A stretch of 64,000 bases of DNA, taken from the IMG/VR virus record IMGVR_UViG_3300007511_000003, positions 104,901 through 168,900 of that record. One strand, given 5' to 3'. Source of the DNA: a virus. Of the stretch, positions 11,823 through 30,623 are shown in pieces (position 1 is the first letter of the stretch; the number at the start of each line of letters is the position of its first letter). The notes under the pieces were generated by a model, which was given only the letters and a program-made list of their open reading frames with translations, ran no database searches and was not told the DNA's origin. The translations under genes and the position numbers were made by a program.

Positions 11823-11845
11823 AAATCAAGATTAGACTAGAGATA

Positions 11846-11919
11846 TGGACCTGCGTTTGGGTAGAACCAACAACCTAAGGCTTAACAGGCCCTCACTTTA
11901 CCAACCAAACTACTGTGGA
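11846..11919 (-). tRNA. tRNA-Asn(GTT)-like gene with unpaired acceptor
   Basis: The anticodon arm AGGGC-CTGTTAA-GCCTT reads GTT (Asn), the D-arm contains TTGGTA, and the length with CCA is 74 nt. The T-loop is TTCTACC, with T where a purine is normal. The 5' strand TCCACAG does not pair with the 3' strand (about three of seven positions). The 3' end shares the string ACCTGCGTT-GGG (+ strand) with the tRNA at 11735, suggesting recombination between the two. It may be a pseudogene or need repair. Confidence 0.5.
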
Positions 11920-11926
11920 TTAAGAT

Positions 11927-12033
11927 GGCACGTAGTAGGAATCGAACCTACGATTCTCGCTTAAACGGTTGATCAGTCCGCTATCGGCGAGCACAGACTC
12001 TGCCTGCGCGTTTACCACTCCGCCATACGTGCC
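11927..12033 (-). tRNA. Oversized tRNA-like gene, anticodon unclear
   Basis: An eight-pair acceptor GGCACGTA/TACGTGCC and a perfect T-arm (GTAGG-TTCGATT-CCTAC) show tRNA ancestry, and the D-arm TGGCGGAGTGGTAAACGC is Leu/Ser-like. The middle is about 20 nt too long (107 nt in total) and no 7-nt loop has the universal T33. The best fit is CGCAG-GCAGAGT-CTGTG, plus a very long variable arm closed by CTCGC/GCGAG. No CCA is encoded. It is a tRNA-like RNA or a tRNA with an insertion. Confidence 0.5.
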
Positions 12034-12043
12034 ACAAAGAAAA

Positions 12044-12296
12044 TATGGTGTGCTATTACGCCAAAGAGGAGTTCACCCTTACCATCTCTGGGGTGGCTTA
12101 CTACTTCACCAAGTGGCGCCCGTCGCCTATCCCTCATAGCAGGTGGTCCTGCAGAGCTCTTTATTTGGATGCCGCCACCCAAACGTTAGCCTAGAGGTTT
12201 CCCTGGTTCATGCCCTTGCAATCCAGGTACGTACTACAACTAACGGCCTTTGCCTCACTCTTTAAAGGATGGCTGCTTCTAAGCCAACCTCCCATA
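12044..12296 (-). ncRNA. 23S rRNA GTPase-associated-centre mimic, interrupted
   Basis: The - strand from 12296 reads TATGG, then a GAC sequence through TTGGCTTAGAAGCAGCCATC and TTTAAAGAGT (12257). It resumes at 12061 with GCGTAATAGCACA and closes with CCATA (12044). Joining the two parts gives exactly 58 nt, the size of the classical L11/thiostrepton-binding domain (E. coli 1051-1108), with a 48-nt interior differing from E. coli at five positions. A1067 and A1095 are retained. Changes are compensated: U1058-A1080 to G-C, A1090-U1101 to U-A, and all five closing pairs changed yet paired. The rest of 23S rRNA is absent. It is expected to be transcribed with the tRNAs and could bind ribosomal protein L11 or L10/L12-dependent factors; the function is inference. 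Confidence 0.85.
12062..12256 (-). other. 195-nt insertion in the GAC RNA, possible group I-like intron
   Basis: Non-coding. The upstream exon ends in U and the insertion ends in G, as in group I introns, and excision restores a perfect GAC register. Visible pairings are CGTTAG/CTAACG, CCTGG/CCAGG, GGGTGGC/GCCACCC and a GCAGG-ACCA-CCTGC hairpin. CAGGGAAACC and GAAGTAGTAA resemble strings in the small Azoarcus tRNA intron as I recall it. A guide GCTCT that could pair with the exon end AGAGT lies mid-insertion, which is unusually far in. A full P3-P7 core was not established, so splicing is unproven. Confidence 0.5.
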
Positions 12297-12302
12297 CCTT
12301 AT

Positions 12303-12308
12303 AGTATA
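12303..12308 (-). promoter_or_regulatory. -10-like TATACT before the GAC RNA
   Basis: TATACT on the - strand would place transcription start within a few bases of the first GAC helix strand (12296). No good -35 is found at 17 nt. It lies directly after the stop codon of the 12310 gene. Confidence 0.35.
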
Positions 12309-12309
12309 T

Positions 12310-12681
12310 TCAATACCACGTTCGATGTTGTTCAAATACCCATTCACGACCATCGTCAGCTTCACCGATACTCCACTTAATGTCCTCCGGAATCTCTATG
12401 ACCTTCAGGTCAGGGGCCAAATCCTGGTGTTGGTTGAATGCTTCCAAGAGAGCAGGGTCATCACGCGGTATATCAAACACTGGGCAAAATCGTTCACCAT
12501 CCTTGGTGTAGTTAAAGGATGCATGTGGTTCGTCTTCATGGGCCTGGTCTTTATAAGATTGGACATACACTCCGTCCAGTTCCCACTGGAGATCAACACC
12601 AGTAGCCTGTGCCCAGGCCATCACAATTTTGTGTGGAAGGGAAAACCCACCGATTTCTTTGTTAATGAGTATATGCCTCAC
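12310..12681 (-). CDS. Hypothetical protein, 123 aa
   Basis: Conserved-looking small phage protein. The last 30 residues (KVIEIPEDIKWSIGEADDGR, then EWVFEQHRTWY) match a pattern I know from many phage hypothetical proteins, in which an IPDD-W-I-E segment is followed by G-EWV-E-HRTW. The N-terminus is MRHILINKEIGGFSLPHKIV. There is no catalytic or metal motif. It sits between tRNA-Gln and the GAC RNA on the same strand and may share their transcript. Function unknown. Confidence 0.75.
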   Translation of the reverse strand: MRHILINKEIGGFSLPHKIVMAWAQATGVDLQWELDGVYVQSYKDQAHEDEPHASFNYTKDGERFCPVFDIPRDDPALLEAFNQHQDLAPDLKVIEIPEDIKWSIGEADDGREWVFEQHRTWY

Positions 12682-12708
12682 GAGTAACTACCTTAAGTAC
12701 TGGTTGAT

Positions 12709-12785
12709 TGGCTGGCCCTCCTGGATTCGAACCAGGGATACACAGAATCAAAATCTGTTGCCTTACCAAACTTGGCTAAGGGCCA
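12709..12785 (-). tRNA. tRNA-Gln(TTG)
   Basis: Complete cloverleaf of 77 nt: acceptor TGGCCCT/AGGGCCA, D-arm GCC...GGC, anticodon arm ACAGA-TTTTGAT-TCTGT (anticodon TTG), T-arm CCTGG-TTCGAAT-CCAGG, then encoded GCCA. It is the most regular tRNA in the island, together with tRNA-Ala. Confidence 0.95.
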
Positions 12786-12964
12786 ATCGAATACCACAGG
12801 CTGGGCGTTACTCCAGCTACACGGTTTCTCACCAGGAATATAACCGGGATCACCTGGTAATTCGCACGAGCTACACTGGCATCAGGCCCTTATCCCTTGC
12901 CATTTGGGCAATATCCCTCCTGTCACCAGGAGGCCCCCGTTTACCGCGGGGCGGTACAACGCAA
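12786..12964 (-). other. Structured non-coding stretch upstream of tRNA-Gln
   Basis: 180 nt without a credible gene but with consecutive hairpins on the - strand: CCCCG/CGGGG around CGGTAAA, CCTCCT/AGGAGG around GGTGAC, TTGCC/GGCAA around CAAAT, ACCAGG/CCTGGT and GCTGG/CCAGC. It may be another non-coding RNA or a tRNA leader. No known family was recognised. Confidence 0.4.
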
Positions 12965-13213
12965 TTATGCCACTCCTCTATATATTATTATTATATAGAG
13001 ATGTGTCCTGTTTCCCCGCCCGATCAGGTGACGGGCCTGACGCTCGGTGCCGACACGCCAGTCTTGTTCTTGAGCGAGTTTGGCAAAGGCAAGGGCCAAT
13101 AGGTTGCGATCATAATAGGCGGCCTCCAATGCTTGCCCCTCCGCTCGCAACTTAACCACTTCTGCCTTTCGCAGTTCCTCAGCATGAGCGCCTGATAATT
13201 GGACATTACACAT
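12965..13213 (-). CDS. Hypothetical protein, 82 aa
   Basis: Starts at 13213 with an AGGA site 7 nt upstream. Helical and charged (AEELRKAEVVKLRAEGQALE), with a conserved-looking DRNLLALAFAKLAQEQ stretch typical of small phage proteins of unknown role. The last residues are encoded by an AT-rich hairpin (12976-13000) and read THLYIIIIYRGVA. No known function. Confidence 0.65.
   Translation of the reverse strand: MCNVQLSGAHAEELRKAEVVKLRAEGQALEAAYYDRNLLALAFAKLAQEQDWRVGTERQARHLIGRGNRTHLYIIIIYRGVA
12976..13000. terminator. AT-rich hairpin at the gene end
   Basis: CTCTATATA, 7-nt loop, TATATAGAG: a perfect 9-bp inverted repeat overlapping the 3' end of the 82-aa gene. It is a likely transcription end or processing site between the small genes and the RNA stretch. 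Confidence 0.5.
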
Positions 13214-13222
13214 GGTCAGTTC

Positions 13223-13411
13223 CTAATCAACAATAGTAAAATCAAAGGCCCCATAATCCAAGATCACGCTTTTACCTGGAGGAACATGTGTCAGAACAAA
13301 CTGTTCAAAGGTAGGGTCGTTTCCTTTTAAACGGAGAAACCGTTCATCCTTTGGCATTCCTTCCCACTGCTCCTTAACCATCTTTTCCAGTTCGTCATAG
13401 GTTAACTTCAT
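13223..13411 (-). CDS. Hypothetical protein, 62 aa
   Basis: Small acidic protein (MKLTYDELEKMVKEQW...). Its ATG overlaps the TGA of the 59-aa zinc protein upstream (ATGA), so the two are coupled. The next gene starts 10 bp downstream. No motif; function unknown. Confidence 0.65.
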   Translation of the reverse strand: MKLTYDELEKMVKEQWEGMPKDERFLRLKGNDPTFEQFVLTHVPPGKSVILDYGAFDFTIVD

Positions 13412-13587
13412 GATAGTGACCCTAAGTTACCACCCCAAGTATTTTTGATCACATGGCCACGCCACATGTGAAGACCCTCCTCCGTGGCGTGGCACCTTTT
13501 GCAAATACAGGCCCCTGCATAAAACCTATATATCTCGTTGTCTTCCTTGGGCTGGTGGCAACAAACACAATTCAGAGTTTCTTCCAT
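13408..13587 (-). CDS. Small zinc-ribbon protein, 59 aa
   Basis: Found by direct reading. ATG at 13587, stop TGA at 13408-13410 overlapping the next start as ATGA. It begins MEETLNCVCCHQPKEDNE and continues AGACICKRCHATEEG, giving CxCC...CxCxxC with two likely zinc half-sites. The ATGA overlap and cysteine pattern support a real gene. Small zinc ribbons of this type in phages often bind host or phage transcription or translation proteins; no specific partner can be named. Confidence 0.7.
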   Translation of the reverse strand: MEETLNCVCCHQPKEDNEIYRFYAGACICKRCHATEEGLHMWRGHVIKNTWGGNLGSLS

Positions 13588-13606
13588 GGAACCATGCCTT
13601 TAAGTT

Positions 13607-13682
13607 TGGTGGAGACGGACGGAATCGAACCGCCGACATCCTGCTTGCAAAGCAGGCGCTCTCCCAACTGAGCTACGCCCCC
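13607..13682 (-). tRNA. tRNA-Ala(TGC)
   Basis: Complete 76-nt tRNA: acceptor GGGGGCG/CGTCTCC with two G-U pairs, D-arm TAGCTCAGTTGGGAGAGC, anticodon loop TTTGCAA (TGC), T-loop TTCGATT, discriminator A, encoded CCA. It is very close to bacterial tRNA-Ala. Confidence 0.95.
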
Positions 13683-13693
13683 ACGAGATAAAA

Positions 13694-14233
13694 TTACTTC
13701 TTTTGGAAAACCAACATCAAAGCCCCAAGGATCGATGCAAGACCAGCAAAAAGTTGACCGGGCAAAGGGTTAGTGTTGTTCGGAGTCTGCGCCAGCTGGA
13801 CCGCCGCCACCCGAAGCTGGTTCAGAAACATTGGGTTGGTCAAATCCATGGCCCCGCTTTGCTGAGGAATCTGGGCAGGAGCAGAGGGACCACCCCCAAC
13901 CACAGGAAACACCTGCTTCTCCTCAGGGTTCACAGCAACCTTCTGATCAACCAGGAACCCCTGTCCCGCTGTCAGGTGCTGCTTGAGCTGGTCAATGGTC
14001 CACAACATTCCTGCGTGGTCGGGTGGGGCCGGAGGGGGGCGGCGGAGGTTACGTGGTTTGAACCCTTGTTCCAAGGCAGACATGTACAGGACCTCAACAC
14101 CATTCTGGCGGGTGTACAGGCTGACGTTGAACACTGTGTTATCCGCTACTCCATAGATACGTACCTGTTGGCCTGGGGTAAATTTACGAAGCTGCTCCAA
14201 ATCAGCTGGTTTGTGGACTTCGATTACACTCAT
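13694..14233 (-). CDS. Hypothetical protein with C-terminal membrane segment, 179 aa
   Basis: The N-terminal region (MSVIEVHKPADLEQLRKF) is followed by short beta strands, a Pro-rich linker (RRPPPAPPDHAG) and a Gln/Asn-rich region. The last 23 residues are a single hydrophobic helix ending in charge (LFAGLASILGALMLVFQKK), a tail-anchor-like membrane segment. It lies between tRNA-Ala and tRNA-Ser on the same strand. A membrane-tethered or envelope-interacting role is suggested by topology only. Confidence 0.7.
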   Translation of the reverse strand: MSVIEVHKPADLEQLRKFTPGQQVRIYGVADNTVFNVSLYTRQNGVEVLYMSALEQGFKPRNLRRPPPAPPDHAGMLWTIDQLKQHLTAGQGFLVDQKVAVNPEEKQVFPVVGGGPSAPAQIPQQSGAMDLTNPMFLNQLRVAAVQLAQTPNNTNPLPGQLFAGLASILGALMLVFQKK

Positions 14234-14312
14234 CTCGGCTCCTTTGTTCTACTGTTCCCACTGAACATGATCTAACCTCTGATAACCCAAAACCACCTCG
14301 GCTCTCAATAAT

Positions 14313-14400
14313 TGGTAGGGCTGGAGGGAGTTGAACCCACGGTAGGTCGCCCTACGTCGGTTTTCAAGACCGGTACCTTTAACCACTCGGCCACCCTTCC
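14313..14400 (-). tRNA. tRNA-Ser(TGA) with anomalous acceptor
   Basis: The D-arm TGGCCGAGTGGTTAAAGG, the anticodon arm ACCGGTCTTGAAAACCG (TGA) and a class II variable arm are those of bacterial tRNA-Ser. With the normal 5' end GGAAGGG the 3' strand CAGCCCT hardly pairs. Shifting to AGGGTGG pairs six of seven but removes positions 8-9 and leaves discriminator A instead of the Ser G. CCA is encoded. It may be a chimera or need correction. Confidence 0.7.
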
Positions 14401-16455: not shown

Positions 16456-16699
16456 GATTTTCCTCCTGATTGATTGTCGGGGTAGTACCCCTTGTTGGTT
16501 GGTGTTCTTGTGTTAATATCTCTTTACAGTCTGCCAAACAGTGGGAACAAATGCATACACGTTCTTCCTGTTTGGCGCCTTCTATGACCTGCATAGGGCC
16601 TAAAGCCACTTCCTTTGGAGGTCGTAACTCCATGCAAAAATGGCAACGAAAGGCACTCCATTTTAGTAACGACTTTTCTCCAGGAAGGATCTCTGTCAT
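16373..16699 (-). CDS. ClpX-type C4 zinc-finger protein without ATPase, 108 aa
   Basis: Residues 19-60 match the zinc-binding domain of ClpX, where the pattern is CSFCGK...GP...VYICDECVDLC: here FRCHFCMELRPPKEVALGP and VCICSHCLADCKEIL, with Cys19, Cys22, Cys51, Cys54 and the following DC. In ClpX this domain dimerises and binds substrates and adaptors such as SspB. Here it is free, followed only by a disordered acidic tail. A likely role is to interfere with or redirect host ClpXP, which is inference. Its start overlaps the stop of the GyrA-like gene (TAATG) and its tail overlaps the next gene. Confidence 0.75.
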   Translation of the reverse strand: MTEILPGEKSLLKWSAFRCHFCMELRPPKEVALGPMQVIEGAKQEERVCICSHCLADCKEILTQEHQPTRGTTPTINQEENHGNEDQQESERGTGPAPTGSPEGTPSS

Positions 16700-18165
16700 T
16701 ACACCGTCACCTTGGCAAACTCGCGAAGGTCCTCCACCATTTTTGGGCGTGGGTCTTTAAGGTGGTATCGCAGATCATCCCTCTGTTTATTCAAATTATT
16801 AATGCGGGCCTCAAGGTCCTCGATATTCCAGCGGTGTAACTGCAGGATCTTAAACCCCAATATCTGGTCAGCCTCTTCCAAGGTAATACCCTCGAGGTGC
16901 TTAACCAAGTAATTGGCAGGCTCCTCATCATCCAAGGACTTCAATACCGTGTCTTTATTCAGGGACGCCAGCAGACGTAGTTCCAAGTCCCGTATCTTTT
17001 TATCCAGCACTCGTATTAGGTACCGCAAGCTACGACGTTCCTGTTTGAGCCTCCAAGCCACCCAGTTTTTCAGTAACTTGGGGATCGAGGTCCTACGGAA
17101 CCGGGCCCTCATCTTCCCAGTACTGGCATCGAATGACCTACTGACAATGTTGACGCGGAAGTCTAGTTTGGAATCAAAGTAGGACACCACCTCTTGGGAT
17201 AACGTAACAAAGCGTGAAGCCGCGGTCTTCTTCAAGAATACCGTATACCTTGGACCCGTCTCTAGGGAAGTCTCATCGTCTACAGAGGCAACGTAGGACA
17301 GCTCTCGTACTTTGGCAACCACTTTTCCGATATTCAGATTGGGTGCGAATCCGGTAAACGTGAGGGAAAGCTGGTGTTGGTTTACGTGATGGGGCGAGCT
17401 GAACCACACCCCACCTGTGCCCTGTTCGTAGAAAGCCCTTAGGTCTGCCAGACCTTCTTTGTCCAGGATGGCTTCCCCACCATATTTATACCGGAATTTC
17501 AGATGTTTAACACACTCGGCAACACCCACTGGTTCATCGTCCAATAAACGTTGGACCAATGTGATGAGACCCTTGAGCTCATAACTTGGTATGTGGGCGG
17601 TACCGCCCATTGCGATCCCGAAAGTACCATTCACCAAGATATTGGGGACTAGGGAGGGCAGCACTACAGGCTCCACCGCCTTTCCATCATACGTGGGCAT
17701 CTCCTCAAGGGTAGGTACGTAGTCAGGGTGGAAGAGACCCTTGTCTGCATATTTGGTGAGGCGACCCTCTGTGTACCGCATAGCAGCGGGCCCGTCTGTT
17801 AGCGAACCCCAGTTACCTTTACCATCGATGAGGGGCGTACTGAGGTTTGCCATGGTGACAGCGGCCCCATAGATAGCACTGTCACCATGTGGGTGGAACT
17901 TACCCATTGTATCACCAACAATCCTGGCGGCTTTCAAAACCCCGGCGTTATGGGTAAGCCCTAACTTGTGCATCGCCCAAAGGATGCGACGTTGGACTGG
18001 CTTGAGTCCATCTCGGAAGTCGGCAATTGCCCGGTCCTCCAAGGTGTACTTTCCATAGTCCATCATCGCCCCTCGGGCGTACTCCAATAAACCTACCTCT
18101 GGAACATGGGCAACACTCGCAGGGGCTTGGAGCGCGGGGTTAACTTTTCGTGTTCGTCGGCTCAT
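16699..18165 (-). CDS. Type IIA DNA topoisomerase subunit A (GyrA/ParC, T4 gp52-like), 488 aa
   Basis: Breakage-reunion subunit of a phage type II topoisomerase. Visible signatures are DFRDGLKPVQRRILWAM, GDTMGKFHPHGDSAIY, and PAAMRYTEGRL with catalytic Tyr131. The winged-helix, tower and C-gate helices follow, but the protein ends near 488 residues, so the C-terminal beta-pinwheel that lets GyrA wrap DNA (full GyrA is about 875 aa) is missing. This predicts relaxation or decatenation like T4 gp52 rather than supercoiling. The partner subunit is encoded at 21380-23254. A consensus sigma-70 promoter lies about 50 bp upstream. Confidence 0.95.
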   Translation of the reverse strand: MSRRTRKVNPALQAPASVAHVPEVGLLEYARGAMMDYGKYTLEDRAIADFRDGLKPVQRRILWAMHKLGLTHNAGVLKAARIVGDTMGKFHPHGDSAIYGAAVTMANLSTPLIDGKGNWGSLTDGPAAMRYTEGRLTKYADKGLFHPDYVPTLEEMPTYDGKAVEPVVLPSLVPNILVNGTFGIAMGGTAHIPSYELKGLITLVQRLLDDEPVGVAECVKHLKFRYKYGGEAILDKEGLADLRAFYEQGTGGVWFSSPHHVNQHQLSLTFTGFAPNLNIGKVVAKVRELSYVASVDDETSLETGPRYTVFLKKTAASRFVTLSQEVVSYFDSKLDFRVNIVSRSFDASTGKMRARFRRTSIPKLLKNWVAWRLKQERRSLRYLIRVLDKKIRDLELRLLASLNKDTVLKSLDDEEPANYLVKHLEGITLEEADQILGFKILQLHRWNIEDLEARINNLNKQRDDLRYHLKDPRPKMVEDLREFAKVTV

Positions 18166-18214
18166 ATGTTATTTCCTTGGACCTTTCTACGTTGGACCAT
18201 TGTTTACCCCTATA

Positions 18215-18243
18215 AGTATAGCATCGGGCGAGCCCAATGTCAA
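18215..18243 (-). promoter_or_regulatory. Consensus sigma-70 promoter for the GyrA-like gene
   Basis: - strand: TTGACA (18238-18243), 17 nt, TATACT (18215-18220). It points at the ATG at 18165. The spacing is perfect and the -35 box exact. Confidence 0.8.
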
Positions 18244-18260
18244 GCGAGTGTTTTTGACCA

Positions 18261-18668
18261 CTATTGACAGATTGGCACCACGTTTGTCATGTTGTTTCCA
18301 CTACCTTCTGGGAGCGCAGAGGTTCCAGCAGGGATGATGCCGGTCATTGCCTGGATGTACTTGTCCTGGATATCCTTCTTGGGGAAGTAGGGCATGGTTT
18401 CCACCTGACTGAAGTGGAACCGCATGTCAGAGGTCGGCAACTTCATCTGGTTGGTGGGTTCCTGCATGTAGTATGAGATGGGTACGAATCCAATCTGGGC
18501 GACCTTGACGGGCTTTCCCGTGGCGGGATCCGTTTGATTCTGGATCGCCAGTTGCAACAGGACGGCATTGTCCAAGTAGATCATTTGCTGCTCTTGGTCA
18601 ATACGACACTGGCCCAGATACTCGCGGTTTGGTGACCGCATGACAACCATGATGGTACTTCTGTCCAT
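18261..18668 (-). CDS. Hypothetical protein, 135 aa
   Basis: The start at 18668 follows AAGGAG. Beta-rich N-terminal half (STIMVVMRSPNREYLGQCRI, MIYLDNAVLLQLAIQNQ), then a Met/Pro-rich segment. The pattern of short strands suggests a small Sm-like or OB-like domain, but no family was recognised. It directly follows queC with 12 bp between the genes, so they are probably co-transcribed. Confidence 0.65.
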   Translation of the reverse strand: MDRSTIMVVMRSPNREYLGQCRIDQEQQMIYLDNAVLLQLAIQNQTDPATGKPVKVAQIGFVPISYYMQEPTNQMKLPTSDMRFHFSQVETMPYFPKKDIQDKYIQAMTGIIPAGTSALPEGSGNNMTNVVPICQ

Positions 18669-18679
18669 TGTTCTGCTCC

Positions 18680-19381
18680 TTAACAAACATCAAAGTGGTT
18701 GAGGCGTTCCAGTAGGGGATCGGATAACCCAGCATCCGCAAAACCCTTGGCACGCAATAAGCAACTACGGCACTTGGTACATGGGGATTTACCCCCTTCA
18801 TAGCAAGTGGTGGTGAAGGCCAATAATTCCATACCACGCGGCAACGACTGAGCAAACTCTACCACCCCTTGCTTACCCCACTGCATTAGAGGAGTAAGTA
18901 CCTGGAAGTGGTAGTCCATTCCTTTCGTCAGAGCCTCGGCCATGGCATCCGCAAAGTCACGGCGAGCGTCTGGGTACCCGCCCAACCCCTGTTCAGATAT
19001 GCCAAACACCAGGTTAGGGCAATCCAAAGCATAGGCCCTGTTCGCGAGCAAAATGGAAAACAGGATGTTACGCCCTGGAACGAACGTAAGGTCCTTGCCA
19101 CCATCTGGGATCTCCGACGCGTCTTCGTATCGTTTGACTTCGTTCGCGCTGTTTACCAGTGGACTGGTGGACCGCAAGAGCTCATTCGGGACACTGATAA
19201 TATCCTGACGTATGCCAAGTTGGCGGCATATGGTCTGGGAAGCAAGCCGTTCCGCTTCCCATGTTTTGTGTCCATAGTTGAAGGTGATAGCGCGAACCTC
19301 GTCAAACTCTTGCTGGGCCCAAATCAGGGCAAGAGTCGAGTCGAGGCCTCCGGATAAACTGACAAGGGCTTTCGTTGTCAT
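18680..19381 (-). CDS. queC: QueC, 7-cyano-7-deazaguanine (preQ0) synthase, 233 aa
   Basis: ATP-dependent conversion of 7-carboxy-7-deazaguanine to preQ0. The PP-loop SLSGGLDST (residues 8-15) binds ATP. The C-terminal zinc site CYEGGKSPCTKCRSC has four cysteines (193, 201, 204, 207) as in bacterial QueC. The length is normal. In phages QueC commonly serves modification of guanines in DNA to 7-deazaguanine derivatives that protect against restriction. The insertion enzyme DpdA and the early enzymes FolE, QueD and QueE were not seen in this window, so they are elsewhere in the genome or supplied by the host. A TTGTAAATA-like box lies 36-44 bp upstream. Confidence 0.95.
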   Translation of the reverse strand: MTTKALVSLSGGLDSTLALIWAQQEFDEVRAITFNYGHKTWEAERLASQTICRQLGIRQDIISVPNELLRSTSPLVNSANEVKRYEDASEIPDGGKDLTFVPGRNILFSILLANRAYALDCPNLVFGISEQGLGGYPDARRDFADAMAEALTKGMDYHFQVLTPLMQWGKQGVVEFAQSLPRGMELLAFTTTCYEGGKSPCTKCRSCLLRAKGFADAGLSDPLLERLNHFDVC

Positions 19382-19416
19382 GGTAGGTTCCTTTCAATAA
19401 AATTATGGCTACCCTT

Positions 19417-19425
19417 TATTTACAT
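19417..19425 (-). promoter_or_regulatory. ATGTAAATA promoter-like box before queC
   Basis: One mismatch to TTGTAAATA on the - strand, 36-44 bp upstream of the queC start. A terminator hairpin lies immediately upstream of it. Confidence 0.5.
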
Positions 19426-19436
19426 TATACAAATCA

Positions 19437-19470
19437 AAAGGGCCAACGTCGTGTTTAACGTTGGCCCTTT
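19437..19470. terminator. Terminator hairpin between the 19507 gene and queC
   Basis: AAAGGGCCAACG / CGTTGGCCCTTT: 12 perfect base pairs around a 10-nt loop. With A- and T-tracts at both ends it can act in either direction. It ends the 19507 transcript just before the queC promoter box. Confidence 0.85.
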
Positions 19471-19506
19471 GTTGGAAATCCTATTGGGTTGTCAGGTTCC
19501 GAGGTG

Positions 19507-19743
19507 TTAACTGTCGTCACTTTCTGATCGGTCCATCATCTCTGTCAACAGGTCTTCAAAGTCATCACCCCCTGTAACCTGTTCTCCTCCGTCATTATCC
19601 CAGACCAGAAACGACACGCCAGCGTCATGGTCCTCGGGAAGTGGGTATAGGTTGACCCTGAAACTCCCGCCTGTTCCCTCAACTACCAATACATCCCTGT
19701 GGCCTGTGGGAGTTTCCTGGTTTCTGATTGCGTAAATAGCCAT
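19507..19743 (-). CDS. Hypothetical protein, 78 aa
   Basis: The start at 19743 follows GGAGGACA. Begins MAIYAIRNQETPTGHRDVLV; beta-rich with an acidic, Asp/Glu/Ser-rich C-terminus. It looks like a small single-domain protein. No family known. It is last in its transcript, before the 19437-19470 terminator. Confidence 0.6.
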   Translation of the reverse strand: MAIYAIRNQETPTGHRDVLVVEGTGGSFRVNLYPLPEDHDAGVSFLVWDNDGGEQVTGGDDFEDLLTEMMDRSESDDS

Positions 19744-19797
19744 CTTGTCCTCCTTGGCTTCCACCCTTGCTGGTCCTCATAGGGCCTCCTGCAGGTC

Positions 19798-20007
19798 CTA
19801 CATGTTTTCGGGTATATTTGGGTTACCCGGATCCCCTGTCCGATTGCGGGCGGGCTTCTCTTCGGTAGCACCTTGTAAACGTTGGTCCAACCACTCGATC
19901 TTTGCATCCAAGGAATTCGGGGACATTGCGTCATGAAAAAGTTTGGATAATGTTCCTCCGAAAACCCGAAGGGGTGTGGGTTGGAGTCCTTCATATACGA
20001 TCCTCAT
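19798..20007 (-). CDS. Hypothetical protein with tail derived from a neighbour repeat, 69 aa
   Basis: The start at 20007 follows GGAGG. The N-terminal 45 residues (MRIVYEGLQPTPLRVFGGTL...) are unassigned. The tail reads GATEEKPARNRTGDP, and GATEEKPAR also occurs twice in the alpha-CTD-like protein at 20080-20670. The DNA of the repeat is shared too (GGGCTTCTCTTCGGTAGCAC on the + strand), so the tail was probably copied from that gene. The gene may be real with a grafted tail, or decaying. Confidence 0.5.
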   Translation of the reverse strand: MRIVYEGLQPTPLRVFGGTLSKLFHDAMSPNSLDAKIEWLDQRLQGATEEKPARNRTGDPGNPNIPENM

Positions 20008-20030
20008 TTTGACCTCCACATTTTACCTTG

Positions 20031-20065
20031 GAGGGGTTGGGATCAAACTTATTTCCCAACCCCTC
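20031..20065 (-). terminator. Hairpin after the 20080 gene
   Basis: GAGGGGTTGGGA / TCCCAACCCCTC, 12 base pairs around an 11-nt loop, 15 bp past the stop of the alpha-CTD-like gene. No strong T-run follows. Confidence 0.65.
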
Positions 20066-20079
20066 GAGGGGCCACCATG

Positions 20080-20670
20080 TTACTTGGAGGCTTTGAAAGC
20101 GAGGCCGTGAGAGGCCAAAGCATCCTTGACAGCCCTAACCGACCGGCGACCCAAGCCTGAGATATCGCTCATCTCGGCATGGGTTTTGGCCTTGAGCTGG
20201 GAAACGGTCTTGATTCCAGACTTGGCCAGTGTCTCAACCACACGATCAGTCACACCCAGGTCTGCCACGTTCCGCGGGGCCTTGTCACCGGAAGCCTTGG
20301 TTTGGGTTCCCCGACGGGACTTGCGGGCGGGCTTCTCTTCGGTAGCACCTTCGGTGGCCTTGGCTTTCCGGCTCCGACGGCTGGACTTTTTGGTCGCCTC
20401 TTCCTTGGGTTGGCTGTCATCAGCGGTCTCCGCCTTGGCTTTCCGACGGGACTTGCGGGCGGGCTTCTCTTCGGTAGCACCTTCGGTGGCCTTGGCAGTG
20501 GGCTTGCGGACGCGAGTCTTTTTGCCTTCGGTCTGACGCTTTTTGAGCTCCTGCTCCCACTGCTCCGCGAAATCGAAAGCCTTGGCAGCAACGTTCTCAG
20601 TTTCACCAGACTCGATCAAAGCGGCCATGGCGAGGATGGAAACCTGGGTTTTGTTAGACTGACTGTTCAT
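20080..20670 (-). CDS. Alpha-CTD-like HhH protein with basic repeat linker, 196 aa
   Basis: Three parts. An N-terminal helical domain (about 1-45, MAALIESGETENVAAKAFDF) is also found in the neighbour at 20853. A Lys/Arg/Glu-rich linker carries two copies of EGATEEKPARKSRR. The C-terminal domain (about 140-196) resembles the RNA polymerase alpha-subunit C-terminal domain: VADLGVTDRVVETLAKSGIK, TVSQL, then ISGLGRRSVRAVKDALASHG, where alpha-CTD has LSxRxxNxLxxAGI-TVxEL and G(K/R)KSLxEIxxxL. Alpha-CTD binds UP-element DNA and activators, so this may bind DNA or RNA polymerase. A generic HhH DNA-binding domain is the alternative. A sigma-70 promoter lies about 100 bp upstream. Confidence 0.7.
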   Translation of the reverse strand: MNSQSNKTQVSILAMAALIESGETENVAAKAFDFAEQWEQELKKRQTEGKKTRVRKPTAKATEGATEEKPARKSRRKAKAETADDSQPKEEATKKSSRRSRKAKATEGATEEKPARKSRRGTQTKASGDKAPRNVADLGVTDRVVETLAKSGIKTVSQLKAKTHAEMSDISGLGRRSVRAVKDALASHGLAFKASK

Positions 20671-20769
20671 CGTTTTGTTCTCCTATGAAATGGTTGCGGG
20701 CAAAAACACGCCCTCTTTTTGGTCCTGCTCCTTGCTACCTGCTTCTCGTCATTCCTAACCTTCGCCTAC

Positions 20770-20798
20770 ATTGCAGCCTACCGGCCTCCTGGAGGCAA
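20770..20798 (-). promoter_or_regulatory. Sigma-70 type promoter with conserved downstream element
   Basis: - strand: TTGCCT (20793-20798), 17 nt, TGCAAT (20770-20775), then GTAGGCGAAGGTTAGG. The downstream element is shared with the promoters at 25909 and 33458. The AT-rich upstream region (ATACGAAAAAT...) is shared with 33458. Confidence 0.7.
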
Positions 20799-20852
20799 AT
20801 AAAAAAATGCGCGTGGTGGTGGATTTTTCGTATCTGGCTGGAAGGAGTACCT

Positions 20853-21254
20853 TTATCTTACCTTTAGCTTATGACGAATCCCCTTGTCATTTAACTTATC
20901 GATGATCCTCTGACGAGCGTGCTTACCCAGTCCTGTGATGGCTACGAAGTCCTCTTGGGAAAGCTTTGCCACCAGTGACCTGTCCAAACCAGCTTTCCGC
21001 AAGGCGTTGTCGATGCGAGTCCCAAGAGCATCACGCTTTTTCTTCGACTCTACTTTCTTGGGTTCAGCTTTGGGTTCTGTGGTCGATCGCCGGGAGGCGT
21101 TGGTCGGTTGGGTAGTGGTACTTCTCTCCACCCCTAGAAAAGCGTCTGCATATTTAAAAGCCTCTTGAGCCGCCTCTGTGTGGTGTTGGTGGCGACCCAC
21201 CTGTATGATGGCATTCAATGCTGCCAACGCTATATCTGATCTACGTTTATCCAT
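20853..21254 (-). CDS. Alpha-CTD-like HhH protein, second paralogue, 133 aa
   Basis: Same plan as the 20080 gene but shorter. The N-terminal helical domain SDIALAALNAIIQVGRHQHH is followed by a basic Ser/Thr/Lys linker (residues 50-75). A C-terminal helix-hairpin-helix domain reads TRIDNALRKAGLDRSLVAKL, then ITGLGKHARQRIIDKLNDKG. The shared two-domain design shows that the two genes are ancient duplicates. It may form mixed complexes with its partner. The start follows AAGGAG, and a TTGTAAATA-like box lies 46-54 bp upstream. Confidence 0.7.
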   Translation of the reverse strand: MDKRRSDIALAALNAIIQVGRHQHHTEAAQEAFKYADAFLGVERSTTTQPTNASRRSTTEPKAEPKKVESKKKRDALGTRIDNALRKAGLDRSLVAKLSQEDFVAITGLGKHARQRIIDKLNDKGIRHKLKVR

Positions 21255-21299
21255 TAGGTTCTCCTTGACAAAACAAGCAGGGGTATGAATCTTGCTTTT

Positions 21300-21308
21300 T
21301 ATTTACAG
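21300..21308 (-). promoter_or_regulatory. CTGTAAATA promoter-like box
   Basis: One mismatch to TTGTAAATA, 46-54 bp upstream of the ATG at 21254 and directed to it. The gyrB terminator lies just upstream. Confidence 0.5.
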
Positions 21309-21335
21309 CCCTAGCCCGATTCCAGAACAAGAAAA

Positions 21336-21359
21336 AGCCCTGTGAGGGCACACAGGGCT
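21336..21359 (-). terminator. Terminator of the GyrB-like gene
   Basis: - strand stem AGCCCTGTG / CACAGGGCT (6-nt loop) followed by a T-run, 20 bp past the gyrB-like stop. Confidence 0.85.
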
Positions 21360-21379
21360 TCGATTATTGGGAAGCGAGT

Positions 21380-23254
21380 TCAGATACCCAACAGTTCTCG
21401 GCGGTACGCTGGGTTGTCGGCCATCAAGAGGCGGAACTCAGCCATCTGTTTTTTGGAAGGAGCCCCAATCCTAACCATGCGTCGGGTTGATGGATCGAAA
21501 GCTAGAGGACGCAGGTCCTCTGGATCTATCTCTCCCCACCCTTTCAGGTAGGTTACTTGCTTCGGATCCATCTTTGGGCATTGCTTCCGAATCTCGTCTA
21601 CGGTATCCCCGAAATATTTTTTGCTCCTGTGGGTTCCTGCATACCTTGGACCCTGTATGGCGTAAATGAGCCCCCTGTCAAACATCCCTGGTAGGTACTG
21701 TGCAATGAGAGCAAGGATGAGGGTGTTAATATGTCCACCATCGTAGTCGGAGTCTGACAAGAGTATTAAGCGTCCAATACGAAGGTTACCAAGAGGGTCG
21801 GTGTGTCGAGGGTTGAAGCCTAGGACTTTGAGGATGTTCATCACCTCGTCGGATGTGAAGGCCCGGCCCTCCTTGGCCTTCATCACGTTCAAGATCTTAC
21901 CCTTTAGCGGGAGCACGCCTTGGAATTTACGGTGTCTGGCTTGTCGAGCGGATCCCCCGGCTGAGTCCCCTTCCACCAGATAACATTCCCGTTTATGTGC
22001 AGGGCACCCACGGGCAGCGTCAGTATACTTGGACGGGAGAACCGACCCACCTACCTTGGCATTCAGTTTCCTTAACGCCTGTTTATTAAGGGTGAACTCC
22101 TCACGAGCGGCCCGAATGTCTGCCGCTCGCTTACACCAAGCCCGCGCCAGTTTCTTGTTCTTGGTAAAGAACGCTGATAAAACCCCGGCCAGCACATCTT
22201 CAACAGGTTTCTTGGCTCTTGGATCCACCAGCTTCTCTTTTGTCTGCGAAGAGAATTGAGGTTCATCAAGTTTGGCATTCACCAACCCAATGATGCCATC
22301 CCGAAGATCCGGCCCCATGAAAGAATTGCGGCCCTTATATGGCATGAGGGCCTTTGTCAACGCCGCCCAGAGGGCTGTGACCTGGACACCCCCATCAGCG
22401 TTGAGGCTACTGTTGGTGTATGCTTCTACCTTCTCTCCATCATTATTGGTAAAAGAAAGCGCTACGTCAACGTTGGTGTCACGAACGACAAAATGTGGTC
22501 CCTGACTTTGGACCTTCAGTTTTTCGGCCCGAGCGAACAGATAATCTTCAAGGCCCCTCTTAAACCACCAGCTCTTCTTTGTGCCATTGAACGCCAGTTG
22601 GATGCGGAGTCCTTCATTGAGGTAGGCAGTAATCTCGGCCCACTCTTCAATCGGGGTTTTTGACAGCTTAGCCCGCTTATCAAAAATGGTAGGATCGTGC
22701 TCAAAACAGATAACCGTACCAGACTTTGGGCGTGGTACTCTGAAGGGTAGCCTGGGTGGTCCTCCACACGTTCCTACGGCATCCTGTTCCTCTCCTTGGG
22801 CAAAGGTAGTGGTCCACCATTTATGGTTCCTGAAGGTCCATACCTGCATGTACTGAGTAAGGGCGTTCACGACTGTCAAACCAACACCGTGAGTGCCCCT
22901 AGCATTTTTGTAGGCCTTGGCGTCAAACTTCCCTCCGGCATGAAGCTTGGTCAGGATCGTGGTCAGGGTGGAGGTTCCTGTCGAGCGATTTTTCTGGACT
23001 GGGATGCCTGCCCCGTTGTCAATCACCCAGACTCTCTTTTTGTCCACCAATATCATAATGCGATCGTTACGGCCGGCGGCTGCTTCATCCACCGAATTAT
23101 CCGCCACCTCTTTCAACAGCTGGAACAGGCCCTGGCTATTGGTAGGACCCAAATACATGCCGGGACGTTTCCGTATACCCTCGATGGTGCCCAAAGCTTG
23201 GATGTGGCTTTCATCATAGGCCTTGGTACCTCGGTTTCTTGTCGTTCGAGCCAC
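21380..23254 (-). CDS. Type IIA DNA topoisomerase subunit B (GyrB/ParE, T4 gp39-gp60-like), 624 aa
   Basis: ATPase and TOPRIM subunit. The GHKL ATPase shows LLKEVADNSVDEA with the catalytic Glu and Asn, VWVIDNGAGIPV, and TRGTHGVGLTVVNAL. The TOPRIM domain shows ECYLVEGDSAGGSARQ and LILLSDSDYDGGHINTLIL with the metal-binding acidic residues. The length (about 625) equals ParE and is much shorter than GyrB with its insert. Unlike T4, the whole subunit is in one gene. The start is taken as GTG at 23254 because AGGAG is 6 nt before it; an ATG two codons upstream would overlap the ribosome site. It works with the GyrA-like subunit at 16699. Two promoters and a leader hairpin lie upstream. Confidence 0.95.
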   Translation of the reverse strand: MARTTRNRGTKAYDESHIQALGTIEGIRKRPGMYLGPTNSQGLFQLLKEVADNSVDEAAAGRNDRIMILVDKKRVWVIDNGAGIPVQKNRSTGTSTLTTILTKLHAGGKFDAKAYKNARGTHGVGLTVVNALTQYMQVWTFRNHKWWTTTFAQGEEQDAVGTCGGPPRLPFRVPRPKSGTVICFEHDPTIFDKRAKLSKTPIEEWAEITAYLNEGLRIQLAFNGTKKSWWFKRGLEDYLFARAEKLKVQSQGPHFVVRDTNVDVALSFTNNDGEKVEAYTNSSLNADGGVQVTALWAALTKALMPYKGRNSFMGPDLRDGIIGLVNAKLDEPQFSSQTKEKLVDPRAKKPVEDVLAGVLSAFFTKNKKLARAWCKRAADIRAAREEFTLNKQALRKLNAKVGGSVLPSKYTDAARGCPAHKRECYLVEGDSAGGSARQARHRKFQGVLPLKGKILNVMKAKEGRAFTSDEVMNILKVLGFNPRHTDPLGNLRIGRLILLSDSDYDGGHINTLILALIAQYLPGMFDRGLIYAIQGPRYAGTHRSKKYFGDTVDEIRKQCPKMDPKQVTYLKGWGEIDPEDLRPLAFDPSTRRMVRIGAPSKKQMAEFRLLMADNPAYRRELLGI

Positions 23255-23289
23255 TGTCATCTCCTGGCTTGGGTTAATAATCCTTAGTC

Positions 23290-27668: not shown

Positions 27669-27713
27669 CTCGATAAAAATTTTTGGGTACCTAATGATAT
27701 GCGACCTACCGTC

Positions 27714-27722
27714 TATTTACAA
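27714..27722 (-). promoter_or_regulatory. TTGTAAATA promoter-like box before the ligase-like gene
   Basis: Exact match on the - strand, 46-54 bp upstream of the ATG at 27668 and directed at it. Confidence 0.55.
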
Positions 27723-28216
27723 GAAAATTTCCATTTTAGGGTTGGTCAAATCTTGATCTTATTTGGACAATTTTTCAATGAATTTGGTATGGCGTAAAAT
27801 GAGGTTGAAAACCAAAACGTATAGGGTATAAGAGAAACTTAGGGCACCACATAAAGGGAGGTGGGGCCTATGAAGGAAGGGCGGGTAGAAAGTTAAGATC
27901 CAAAATCGGTTCAAACTTGGAAAAGCGGGATTTCAGAATACCTCTTAATCCAGTATAAATACCGAAAGGATAAAGCGAATAGGTTGAAGGATTTTGGTCA
28001 AAAATCGTGATCCACAAGAAAATCTTTACCAAACCAAATCCTGCCTATCCAATTAATCCAAGGTAACGTCTGAGGTTAATGATAGGTAAAAAGCATATGG
28101 GTACCACCACTTGGGAGAACTATATAGAAGTAGCGAGTCGGGCCAGCGGGTATTGGTTTCTAACATTGGGACTGGATCTCACAAGGGACATGGATCTAAA
28201 GATATCCAAAAACCCT
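27723..28216. other. AT-rich non-coding tract
   Basis: About 500 bp of purine-biased, AT-rich sequence without a convincing gene, unusual in this tightly packed genome. It contains repeated GGTT/CAAA-type words (TTGGTCAAA, GGTTCAAAC, TTTTGGTCAAA) but no perfect long repeat. With the hairpins that follow it could be a replication origin or an RNA gene. Confidence 0.45.
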
Positions 28217-28300
28217 AGGGTATACCCTGTTACAGAAGGCGTCGCGGCGCGGAGCGCGTGCGCCTTCTGGTGGACTAAGGACCGTCCCCACTCATCCTAG
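28079..28300 (+). CDS. Doubtful small reading frame, 73 aa
   Basis: ATG at 28079 preceded by GAGG 4 nt away. It encodes MIGKKHMGTTTWENYIEVAS and then a hydrophobic stretch (GYWFLTLGLDL). The frame runs through the first hairpin and into the 25-bp inverted repeat, which argues against coding. Listed because of the ribosome site only. Confidence 0.25.
   Translation: MIGKKHMGTTTWENYIEVASRASGYWFLTLGLDLTRDMDLKISKNPRVYPVTEGVAARSACAFWWTKDRPHSS
28217..28269. repeat. Hairpin 1 of the 28.2-28.4 kb array
   Basis: The palindrome AGGGTATACCCT (28217-28228) is followed by CAGAAGGCG / CGCCTTCTG (28233-28241, 28261-28269) enclosing a very GC-rich loop with further CGCG pairing. Confidence 0.75.
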
Positions 28301-28370
28301 ACATGTAAAATTGGATACCACCTCTTCCTCCATTTGGTAGGTTCAATGTCTAGGATGAGTGGGGACGGTC
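28280..28370. repeat. Hairpin 2: perfect 25-bp inverted repeat
   Basis: Arms 28280-28304 and 28346-28370 are exact reverse complements over 25 bp (left arm begins GACCGTCCCCACTCATCC), around a 41-nt loop. It is the longest perfect inverted repeat noticed in the window. Confidence 0.95.
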
Positions 28371-28381
28371 AAGGATAGAAA

Positions 28382-28421
28382 GAGATGTAGGCTGTCGCTA
28401 CGCTCCAGGCGCCTACATCTC
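28382..28421. repeat. Hairpin 3 of the array
   Basis: GAGATGTAGGC / GCCTACATCTC, 11 perfect base pairs around an 18-nt loop, 12 bp after hairpin 2. Confidence 0.85.
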
Positions 28422-28425
28422 CCTC

Positions 28426-28444
28426 CAGTAGGGCGTAGCCCTGG
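28426..28444. repeat. Hairpin 4 of the array
   Basis: CCAG-T-AGGGC, loop GTA, GCCCT-GG: a short strong hairpin directly after hairpin 3. Confidence 0.65.
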
Positions 28445-28562
28445 TGTTTAGGTAAGGAAAGAAATTTAAGACCTCCTCCAGAATCGGAGTAATCACCACT
28501 GGGTCTGACTAATTTAAAATTGAAGATGGTTGATTTGCGGTGTACCGCCCTACTCTAATTTC

Positions 28563-28571
28563 TTGTAAATA
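28563..28571 (+). promoter_or_regulatory. TTGTAAATA promoter-like box before the polymerase gene
   Basis: Exact match on the + strand, 46-54 bp upstream of the ATG at 28617. A 13-nt direct repeat GAATGAGGATGGT (28578-28590, 28604-28616) follows, the second copy providing the ribosome site. Confidence 0.6.
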
Positions 28572-28616
28572 AATTGGGAATGAGGATGGTCACAATCAAC
28601 CGTGAATGAGGATGGT

Positions 28617-30122
28617 ATGAGATTGAAGGATCATGTATTTGAGCCGGCCCTGGCATCCTACCTAGAGGAGTTGGTTCCGATTCAATGGGATCAACGATTT
28701 TTTACCAATAGGGAGAGAAGCCAGATTAAGAGGTTCCTGTGTCACCTAGCCTACGAAGGCTTGTTTGGGTTAGGGAGATCTACGTTTAAGGTTTGGGTAC
28801 CTATTCCCTGGACCACCTTACATGTAGAAGCCAGAACCGTTACCCGTTCTTTTGGTACCGACAAAGGTTACGAGCTCCTGGAAAAGCTGGGTCTCATTGA
28901 AACCACCAATTATGATAGGCACCGTCGGTTGTGCCGCGAGTACCGACTCGCGTGGAAACACCTTAAGGCTCTTATCATTAGGATGGTTTCTTTATTTCAT
29001 CTGGACCACCATCCTTGGGGCCAGGACAGGCGGCAAGATCATATTTTATTGAAAGCGGTCCTCGGTAGGGTAGAAGGAAAGCGGTTACCTAGGAACAAGA
29101 TATCGGTACCACTTACCACCCACAGTCTACGCGTTATGAAAAACCGATACGTGGATTTTCCTGGACTGGTGACCCACATGTATCAGAGTTATAGAGATCG
29201 GGCAAAGAATGTTGGCGGCTCTTGGAACCGGTTTAAAGCCAACCTTCGGGTATGTTATTTTTTGTTGAGGCACCTCAAGCTGGATACAATAGGATGGTAT
29301 TACCGTCCGCGGTATAAGAGTGGTACGACCGGACGTATCCACGAAATAGGTGGTGGACTGCAAAACGCTCCTGTAGAAATGAAAGTTCGATCTCTCACCA
29401 CAGGGCAGGTCAATTACGACCTAGCGGCATCTCAACCAACAATATTGATTTCTGAATTTGAACAACACGGTATCGACACCCAATGGTTGGAGAACTATGT
29501 TGAGAATCCAAAGGCCAAGGAAAACGCCGCCCAGCGGTGTGGTATTTCTGTAGCTTGCTGGAAGACTATTTTTTGTGCCCTCCTGACAGGCGCCCGTCTT
29601 GTCAAACATCCTCAAAGCTCTATCATGCAAGAACTAGAGCACCATCTTGGAACATGGGATGCCGCCTGCGAGGCATTTGATCGGTTCCACTCTTACACAC
29701 AACCACTCCAAAAAGGTATCAAGGACTGGATCCAGGTTTTACTGGATACCCCTGCTGGTGTTCGCGGTGGTAAAAAATGGTGGCGTAACAAAATCGGTTT
29801 GAGGTTCGTACACCACCGAAATTGTGGCCAGCGTCTGATGGCGTTTATGGTACAGGGACAGGAGTCGGCTTTCATCCAAACATTGGTCATTGAACTGGCC
29901 AAGGTGGGAATTCCTGTTGTGGCCAATGAACACGATGGGTTTATTGCTGTCGGGGACCTGCCCTTGGGGGCCTGTCAACAAGCAGCAGAGAAGGTGGGTC
30001 AGGGAAGGTGGCGTTTTAAGATAGACGCTGTAGGGCCCTCAGAGGGCCAGGGGAGGTCTTTGGAACCATACCTGAGGGAAGTAGAAGCGGGGTACAAGAA
30101 ACAGCAAGGAAGGACCGTATAG
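28617..30122 (+). CDS. Family A DNA polymerase-like protein, 501 aa
   Basis: The palm motifs of Pol I-type polymerases are in order. Motif A is VNYDLAASQPTILISEF with Asp268 (compare DYSQIELR). Motif B-like is CWKTIFCALLTGARL with Lys316. Then MAFMVQGQESAFIQTLVIEL (compare PxQGTAADIIKxAM) and motif C ANEHDGFIAV with His-Asp440 (compare VHDE). The roughly 260 N-terminal residues are basic and not recognisable as a 3'-5' exonuclease. T7-like RNA polymerases share this fold, but the SQ and QG signatures favour DNA polymerase. The ATG at 28617 with GAGG is preferred over a GTG at 28602. The gene is the only + strand gene in a long - strand region and follows the hairpin array, so it may be a separately acquired unit. 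Confidence 0.7.
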   Translation: MRLKDHVFEPALASYLEELVPIQWDQRFFTNRERSQIKRFLCHLAYEGLFGLGRSTFKVWVPIPWTTLHVEARTVTRSFGTDKGYELLEKLGLIETTNYDRHRRLCREYRLAWKHLKALIIRMVSLFHLDHHPWGQDRRQDHILLKAVLGRVEGKRLPRNKISVPLTTHSLRVMKNRYVDFPGLVTHMYQSYRDRAKNVGGSWNRFKANLRVCYFLLRHLKLDTIGWYYRPRYKSGTTGRIHEIGGGLQNAPVEMKVRSLTTGQVNYDLAASQPTILISEFEQHGIDTQWLENYVENPKAKENAAQRCGISVACWKTIFCALLTGARLVKHPQSSIMQELEHHLGTWDAACEAFDRFHSYTQPLQKGIKDWIQVLLDTPAGVRGGKKWWRNKIGLRFVHHRNCGQRLMAFMVQGQESAFIQTLVIELAKVGIPVVANEHDGFIAVGDLPLGACQQAAEKVGQGRWRFKIDAVGPSEGQGRSLEPYLREVEAGYKKQQGRTV

Positions 30123-30126
30123 GCAG

Positions 30127-30167
30127 ATGGGGGCGGATCCCGGAGCCGATTCGGAACCCACCCCCAT
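30127..30167 (+). terminator. Hairpin after the polymerase gene
   Basis: ATGGGGG / CCCCCAT around a 27-nt loop that can pair further (GGATCC.../GGAACC). It lies between convergent genes. No T-run. Confidence 0.45.
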
Positions 30168-30224
30168 GGTGGAGAAGCAACGCCCGATGAGGCTATAATT
30201 ACCCTTCACGAACGTCACTATAAA

Positions 30225-30623
30225 TTAGTCAGAGCCTTGAGTTGGTTGGACAGTCAAATATTTGGCGGCATACTCAGGTGTGGAAAAAAGCCTGGTGACT
30301 CCCACTATGTCCCCAAAGTTATTCCTTACAGTGCTACCCCAACTGGTGTCAGGTGCGAACACGTCAGGGCGGCTTCTTATATGGGTGATGACCAGGCGAC
30401 TGACCAGGTATACAGTGCCCTCTTGAGGATCTGGAAGCCCCTCAATAAACTCCGGTTCGCTAAGGGGGTTCACAGGTACCGGAAGTCCCTCCACCAGTCG
30501 GAGGCTTTTCTTTTTGAACTTGATGCGGGCTATCTTTCCAGATGGTGGTATCTCGGTTATACCCGCTTTACCGATTAAACTGATCGGGTGTTTGGTCAAG
30601 TTGATCATTTTGGTGATTTCCAT
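30225..30623 (-). CDS. Conserved phage hypothetical protein, 132 aa
   Basis: Begins MEITKMINLTKHPISLIGKA, followed by EIPPSGKIARIKFKKK, EGLPDPQEGTVYLVSRLVIT, then RPDVFAPDTSW. I know this INLTPH ... PDPxxGTxYIVSxLV ... RxDVxxPD layout from many small phage and prophage proteins of unknown role. Beta-rich, no membrane segment. AAGGAC precedes the start. A P-loop kinase gene lies upstream on the same strand. Confidence 0.75.
   Translation of the reverse strand: MEITKMINLTKHPISLIGKAGITEIPPSGKIARIKFKKKSLRLVEGLPVPVNPLSEPEFIEGLPDPQEGTVYLVSRLVITHIRSRPDVFAPDTSWGSTVRNNFGDIVGVTRLFSTPEYAAKYLTVQPTQGSD

Follow-up and report, generated by a model that had tools for sequence, protein, structure and literature searches.

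What is the role of a long, hairpin-rich non-coding tract in front of a polymerase gene in a large tailed phage, and do the tract and the gene belong together? The question is raised by a locus of the window, a stretch of 64,000 nucleotides corresponding to positions 104901-168900 of a 168.9-kb virus record (IMG/VR record IMGVR_UViG_3300007511_000003). The original prediction had described this locus as a self-contained unit, which might be a phage replication origin with its polymerase, a mobile element, or a retron-like or defence-type system. Coordinates below are those of the window unless a locus is named.

The non-coding tract and its hairpins

The end of a - strand ORF (27668) and the start of a + strand ORF (28602) were separated by 933 bp, and the sole ORF of at least 70 aa in this interval (28079-28300) had a neutral codon score of -0.01 per codon, as compared with +0.064 per codon for the polymerase gene. 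The predicted non-coding tract of 930 bp was thus confirmed, but its length was less exceptional than had been claimed, because tracts of about 1 kb without a called gene were found elsewhere in the record with a crude gene caller. The features of the tract were the following:

27669-28601, no strand: non-coding tract (leader) 5' of the polymerase gene, with no ORF showing coding bias
28217-28228, no strand: 12-bp perfect palindrome AGGGTATACCCT within a GGGTATA repeat, read off the sequence
28233-28269, no strand: hairpin 1, 16 bp with a 3-nt loop, GC-rich, -26 kcal/mol (folding)
28280-28370, no strand: hairpin 2, 25-bp perfect stem with a 41-nt loop, -55 kcal/mol (folding, record-wide stem scan)
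28382-28421, no strand: hairpin 3, 11 bp plus 3 bp, -22 kcal/mol (folding)
28426-28446, no strand: hairpin 4, 3-nt GTA loop, -11.5 kcal/mol (folding)
28508-28616, + strand: three imperfect direct repeats (...GAATGAGGATGGT), family D1 of the repeat search

RNA folding of 28200-28601 gave a z of -7.9 against dinucleotide shuffles, a stability due to the four hairpins. With a score of 64, hairpin 2 was the top stem of the entire 168.9-kb record, where the runner-up scored 49, and the best stem in five shuffled genomes scored 35. The tract had been said to end in four strong hairpins; all four were present, but they stopped about 155 bp before the gene. None of them was followed by a T-run and they were therefore ruled out as intrinsic terminators.

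AGGGTATA was present three times in the tract, and the copies of the direct repeat (28508-28530, 28568-28590 and 28594-28616) adjoin the start codon, where they could be an operator or iterons. Across the relatives, k-mer enrichment picked out nothing but short A-rich words and some weak repeats confined to single phages, with no significant iteron array. The tract DNA gave only a 38-bp chance match when compared with phages, and identical copies of tract and gene were found in two further contigs of the same virus.

A divergent family A polymerase as the gene product

The gene following the tract, its predicted N-terminal domain and its motifs are located as follows:

28602-30122, + strand: gene of a family A polymerase that lacks an exonuclease, 506 aa if started at GTG and 501 aa if started at ATG 28617, from motifs and fold
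28707-28952, + strand: residues 36-117 (approximately), predicted alpha-beta-alpha-alpha-beta-beta unit, putative winged-helix-like DNA-binding domain (from predicted topology, low to moderate confidence)
29334-29375, + strand: residues 245-258, GRIHEIGGGLQNAP region, corresponding to GRLSS..NLQNIP of Pol I (R668); R245 and Q254 unchanged across 18 homologues
29415-29447, + strand: residues 272-282, YDLAASQPTIL, motif A with catalytic D273 (invariant in 18 homologues) and Q278 at the Pol I E710 position
29562-29591, + strand: residues 321-330, KTIFCALLTG, motif B, K321 (Pol I K758) invariant in 18 homologues
29853-29867, + strand: residues 418-422, QGQES, counterpart of QGTAAD (Q849) in Pol I, from the alignment of homologues
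29928-29942, + strand: residues 443-447, EHDGF, motif C (HDG as against HDE in Pol I), in which D445 is the catalytic residue; H444, D445 and G446 invariant in 18 homologues

ATG 28617, which is preceded by GAGG, may be the better start codon. The protein had no family match in Pfam, NCBIfam or PADLOC, and PF00476 gave no match at E<=1 to nine members of the family; the only groups recovered, phrog_30690 (E 1.4e-8) and phrog_34692 (E 2.6e-4), are both of unknown function. Alignment of the homologues nevertheless revealed the ordered signatures GR..(E.GGG)xQN, D-[LMIV]-x-x-[SC]-[QH], K-x3-[YLC]-x3-[FYTMN]-[GS], QG.E[AS] and HDG, from which single members depart slightly. We take these to be R668/LQNIP, motif A (D705), motif B (K758), Q849/QGTAAD and motif C (H881-D882) of Pol I. 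At the site that matches the steric gate E710 of Pol I, as counted from the catalytic Asp, all aligned members had Gln or His.

AlphaFold2 modelling, in which 14 sequences were allowed, gave a model of the window protein of moderate confidence (pLDDT 58 overall, mostly 63-94 in the core, residues 275-430) and a model of an IMG/VR relative (L016) with a pLDDT of 81. Foldseek found 122 matches to the window model in the PDB at E<=0.001, the best 50 of which were all family A DNA polymerases (top E 7e-8), while the relative matched Pol theta, Taq, Bst and phiVC8 DpoZ and, further down, mitochondrial and T7 RNA polymerases. Over the models, the best PDB matches were Taq, Bst, Klenow and Pol theta; a profile search of PDB sequences gave chance matches only. 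A 3'-5' exonuclease domain was absent from both the sequence and the model. The motif alignment and the fold search thus bore out the original assignment of Pol I palm motifs A, B and C without a recognisable exonuclease domain, and the structure prediction and family A search that had been suggested placed family A DNA polymerases first. The protein is also, as had been stated, not a reverse transcriptase by motif, since it has a family A palm and matches no reverse transcriptase family.

The gene product is therefore almost certainly a divergent family A polymerase, presumably a catalytically active one, with intact catalytic residues in its modelled palm and fingers core. In both models an alpha-beta-alpha-alpha-beta-beta order precedes the core, which suggests that an N-terminal domain of winged-helix topology replaces the usual front half.

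The main PolA of the same phage

Elsewhere, the record encodes a 690-aa polymerase matching PF00476 (E 1.3e-37, L038:5462-7534) and, about 1 kb from it, an exonuclease matching PF01612 (L038:8550-9944); the pair occupies G000:C1:85462-89944 (L038:5462-9944) on the - strand. The exonuclease ORF ends in an N-intein (GEF/CIHPESWVV...) and the polymerase ORF begins with a C-intein (...VLVHN/C), the two halves facing each other. Judging from these sequences, the main PolA looks split by a natural split intein, and it is apparently an ordinary exo+ PolA joined by protein splicing in trans. Because the phage has this separate exonuclease and polymerase, 28602-30122 does not code for the replicative PolA, and an assignment of its product to the ordinary replicative PolAs with a normal exonuclease can be discarded. 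A separate Klenow-like polymerase has also been described in the phage group that includes Dickeya AD1 (PMC7412058).

Relatives and genomic position

Homologues were detected by tblastn in 39 phage records, mostly Alexandra-type giant phages of Erwinia and Dickeya, plus Yersinia fHe-Yen9-02 and Vibrio GR7B. Additional ones were found in Vibrio GR11A, in Microcystis phages and on plasmids of Polaromonas, Calothrix and Synechocystis; the relatives in Alexandra-type phages, Vibrio phages, Microcystis phages and plasmids are all without an assigned function. Pattern scans of genome contigs, and scans of viral contigs using the plasmid or Vibrio proteins, found no relative, and a viral-contig scan with the major capsid protein returned only contigs of the same virus, hence no closely related phage for comparison of the hairpins.

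The polymerase gene lies where a - strand block, containing two topo II subunits, a QueC-like gene and others, meets a + strand structural block with the major capsid, tail sheath and baseplate wedge genes. It is the sole clear + strand gene between 9.0 and 33.4 kb, which agrees with the original description of a 24-kb - strand block containing no other + strand gene. The homologue of GR7B was located at the same topo II/strand-switch/capsid junction, with collinear flanking genes on both sides, and the strand switch was also found within a few kb of the homologue in AD1, Alexandra, Yen9-02, SNUABM_25 and JA11. In the tree the window protein grouped with the Calothrix plasmid protein (90/86, long branches) and not with that of GR7B, so that it is synteny, and not the tree, that points to a common origin of the GR7B copy and that of the window. 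The record as a whole is a distant relative of GR7B and GR11A, with the topo II, QueC-like, capsid, sheath and baseplate genes in matching blocks (window 16699-23260 and 33748-55328).

The cumulative GC skew had its minimum at about 25-27 kb of the window. This is weak evidence for an origin, because gene orientation changes there too and the skew of GR7B has the opposite sign. In both GR7B and GR11A the gene directly after the homologue encodes RNase HI, an enzyme of the type that removes RNA primers.

Upstream regions of the relatives

Most of the giant phages had leaders of 400-1050 bp; in AD1 and JA11 these were partly masked by annotated starts that are too late. The starts annotated for AD1_214 and JA11_200 lie about 450-560 bp too far downstream, and the open frames reach full-length N-termini. 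The leaders of SNUABM_25, AD1, JA11 and GR7B were more structured than shuffles (z -3.9 to -5.2), and their top stems were short and terminator-like. Only about 40 bp separated the preceding gene from the polymerase homologue in the Polaromonas plasmids pW9NP1 and pH8NP1, and about 150 bp preceded it in the Microcystis phages. Relatives with the polymerase and without the hairpins, which the original prediction had named as a refutation, therefore exist, and the idea that hairpins and gene move together among phages did not hold.

RNAalifold detected no covariation in the leaders of 11 relatives (covariation term -0.17 kcal/mol), Rfam gave no match in the tract or in the loci of six relatives, and the leaders of GR7B and GR11A had only terminators in common. 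This lack of covariation and of shared sequence, together with the near-leaderless homologues, does not support a polymerase that copies an RNA template of its own. The results would be compatible with regulatory or origin DNA of fast sequence turnover.

Alexandra-type leaders (L006, L009, L010, L020 and L026) had in common a block AAATTTACAYGGTTT..., then GCCTAAAG, and, close to the start codon, ATTCTGTAAAG; these elements surround some 100 bp of hypervariable sequence. A resemblance of GGAAAGTCC in these leaders to RNase P RNA was dropped after the Rfam search, the element being a terminator-like stem.

Possible functions of the polymerase and the tract

The reading that we prefer, with a probability of about 45%, is that of a second, DNA-binding PolA acting at or near a phage origin, the tract being regulatory or origin DNA. 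The N-terminal domain would bind DNA of the adjacent non-coding tract, where the polymerase would regulate its own gene and extend or lay down primers, and any role of the hairpins would be as extruded or single-stranded DNA structures at an origin. The site lies at the junction at which the replication/metabolism and structural gene blocks diverge, and a divergent junction of gene blocks is a typical position for a bidirectional origin. Against an origin stand the unconserved leaders of GR7B and GR11A, the lack of a significant iteron array across the relatives, the missing long leader in the Microcystis phages and Polaromonas plasmids, and the replication genes that these two plasmids have of their own. 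Among the options listed in the original prediction, a replication origin with its polymerase still fares best. If the polymerase does bind the junction beside its gene, it would mark an origin in phages of a class in which most origins have yet to be mapped, and would be a compact DNA-binding polymerase and a candidate for priming.

The main alternative, and quite a possible one, is that the enzyme is an accessory repair or translesion polymerase. The tract would then be no origin, but just a long leader with a regulatory role or a stretch that is structured by chance. The phage already has an exo+ PolA, the leaders and hairpins are not conserved, and the homologues on plasmids are accessory genes beside the plasmids' own rep gene (of RepA_C type in pW9NP1 and pH8NP1). 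Exonuclease-less second PolAs would suit lesion bypass, and a repair role has been proposed for divPolA2 (PMC11348598). The divergent-junction position in several giant phages, the winged-helix-like domain, which suggests site-specific binding, and the location of the genome's strongest hairpin just upstream of the gene all argue against repair.

T7 RNA polymerase evolved from the same fold, and the RNA polymerase of phage N4 recognises hairpins in single-stranded DNA. An RNA polymerase or primase derived from PolA, which would use the tract to make transcripts or primers and might recognise hairpins in single-stranded DNA, would agree with the mitochondrial and T7 RNA polymerases among the Foldseek matches, the Gln or His in place of Glu at the E710 position, the small hairpins with 3-nt loops and the RNase HI gene next to both Vibrio homologues. 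We regard it as unlikely, since the leading fold matches are DNA polymerases, the core carries signatures of Pol I (LQN, QG.E) and not those of T7 RNA polymerase, and the hairpins are not kept in relatives. A more speculative form, which we rate as similarly unlikely, is an origin-specific initiator whose winged-helix domain docks on the hairpin origin beside the gene and whose palm, with Gln or His replacing the Glu steric gate, primes de novo, so that no separate primase is needed. Such an enzyme would be to Pol I what N4-type hairpin recognition is to RNA polymerases, or a parallel to plasmid Rep-polymerase fusions.

A replication-origin or repair enzyme is more likely than a retron-like or mobile system. 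The patchy occurrence of the gene, in giant phages, in cyanophages and on small plasmids, and the tree that joins the window protein to that of a Calothrix plasmid and not to GR7B, would suit a selfish element in which polymerase and structured DNA travel as a cassette between phages and plasmids. We consider this very improbable, and a self-contained mobile unit is not supported: the GR7B homologue occupies the same junction, collinear on both sides, the position is fixed in Alexandra-type phages, the upstream tracts do not move with the gene, and neither terminal repeats nor an integrase was seen. Still less probable is a retron-like or other ncRNA-templated system of defence or counter-defence, which the structured non-coding stretch followed by a polymerase gene recalls, because there are no reverse transcriptase motifs, no PADLOC or Rfam match and no covarying or conserved ncRNA in the leaders of the 11 relatives, and leaderless homologues exist.

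Comparison with other Pol I-related enzymes

Two kinds of divergent second PolA, divPolA1 and divPolA2, were described from phages in a 2024 survey (PMC11348598). Neither exonuclease nor thumb is present in divPolA2, which comes from barbaviruses and ICP1 (phrog_4756); its N-terminal domain is unrelated, and the survey proposed that it acts in repair or as an RNA polymerase. Six divPolA2 proteins were taken for comparison, and phrog_4756 was checked on one of them. Like divPolA2, the window polymerase is an extra PolA beside a regular polymerase that keeps the palm motifs, lacks the 3'-5' exonuclease and carries an unrelated N-terminal globular domain; the folds of both families match DNA polymerases as well as mitochondrial RNA polymerases, and both have a GGR.(F/Y)...Q.(L)P element ahead of motif A and share the motif A context. 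In contrast, they belong to different PHROGs, gave no tblastn cross-matches in either direction and reached a probability of only 5% in the profile comparison (hhalign), though the right motifs were aligned. In the divPolA2 example the E710 position is occupied by Glu and HDG is missing, whereas the window polymerase has Gln and HDG, and divPolA2 neighbourhoods are variable while the window gene sits at a fixed junction.

As in the Flavobacterium phage immuto group, where divPolA1 is tied to replication genes in phages of 155-190 kb, there is a second, exonuclease-deficient PolA; by description, divPolA1 is set apart by an inactivated exonuclease domain and a truncated thumb, which it retains. 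Ordinary phage PolAs (PF00476) share the order of the core motifs and the fold, but the window polymerase has no PF00476 match, no exonuclease domain, a different N-terminal half and HDG in place of HDE. TV-Pol, the Pol I-related polymerase of virophages and transpovirons, which are mobile elements, is fused to an SF3 helicase (PMC3671162); a BFVD fold search matched the replication protein of the Zamilon virophage, but the window polymerase has no helicase.

The window polymerase thus looks like a further, distinct group beside divPolA1 and divPolA2, its nearest known kind, and by analogy it would work as an accessory PolA of the divPolA type. What seems to be a third, unannotated group would be added to the few second PolAs of large phages, with members in giant phages of enterobacteria, in Vibrio phages and cyanophages and on small plasmids.

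Other genes of the window

Convergent with the polymerase gene, a 132-aa protein is encoded at 30225-30623 on the - strand. It matched PADLOC Unk_01 (PDLC01138, E 1.7e-13), a small protein sometimes fused to CARF, as well as phrog_21731 and phrog_30542. A tRNA cluster at 11735-14397 on the - strand contained Thr, Gln and Ala tRNAs according to ARAGORN, with two more tRNA-like Rfam matches at 11927-12032 and 14316-14397.
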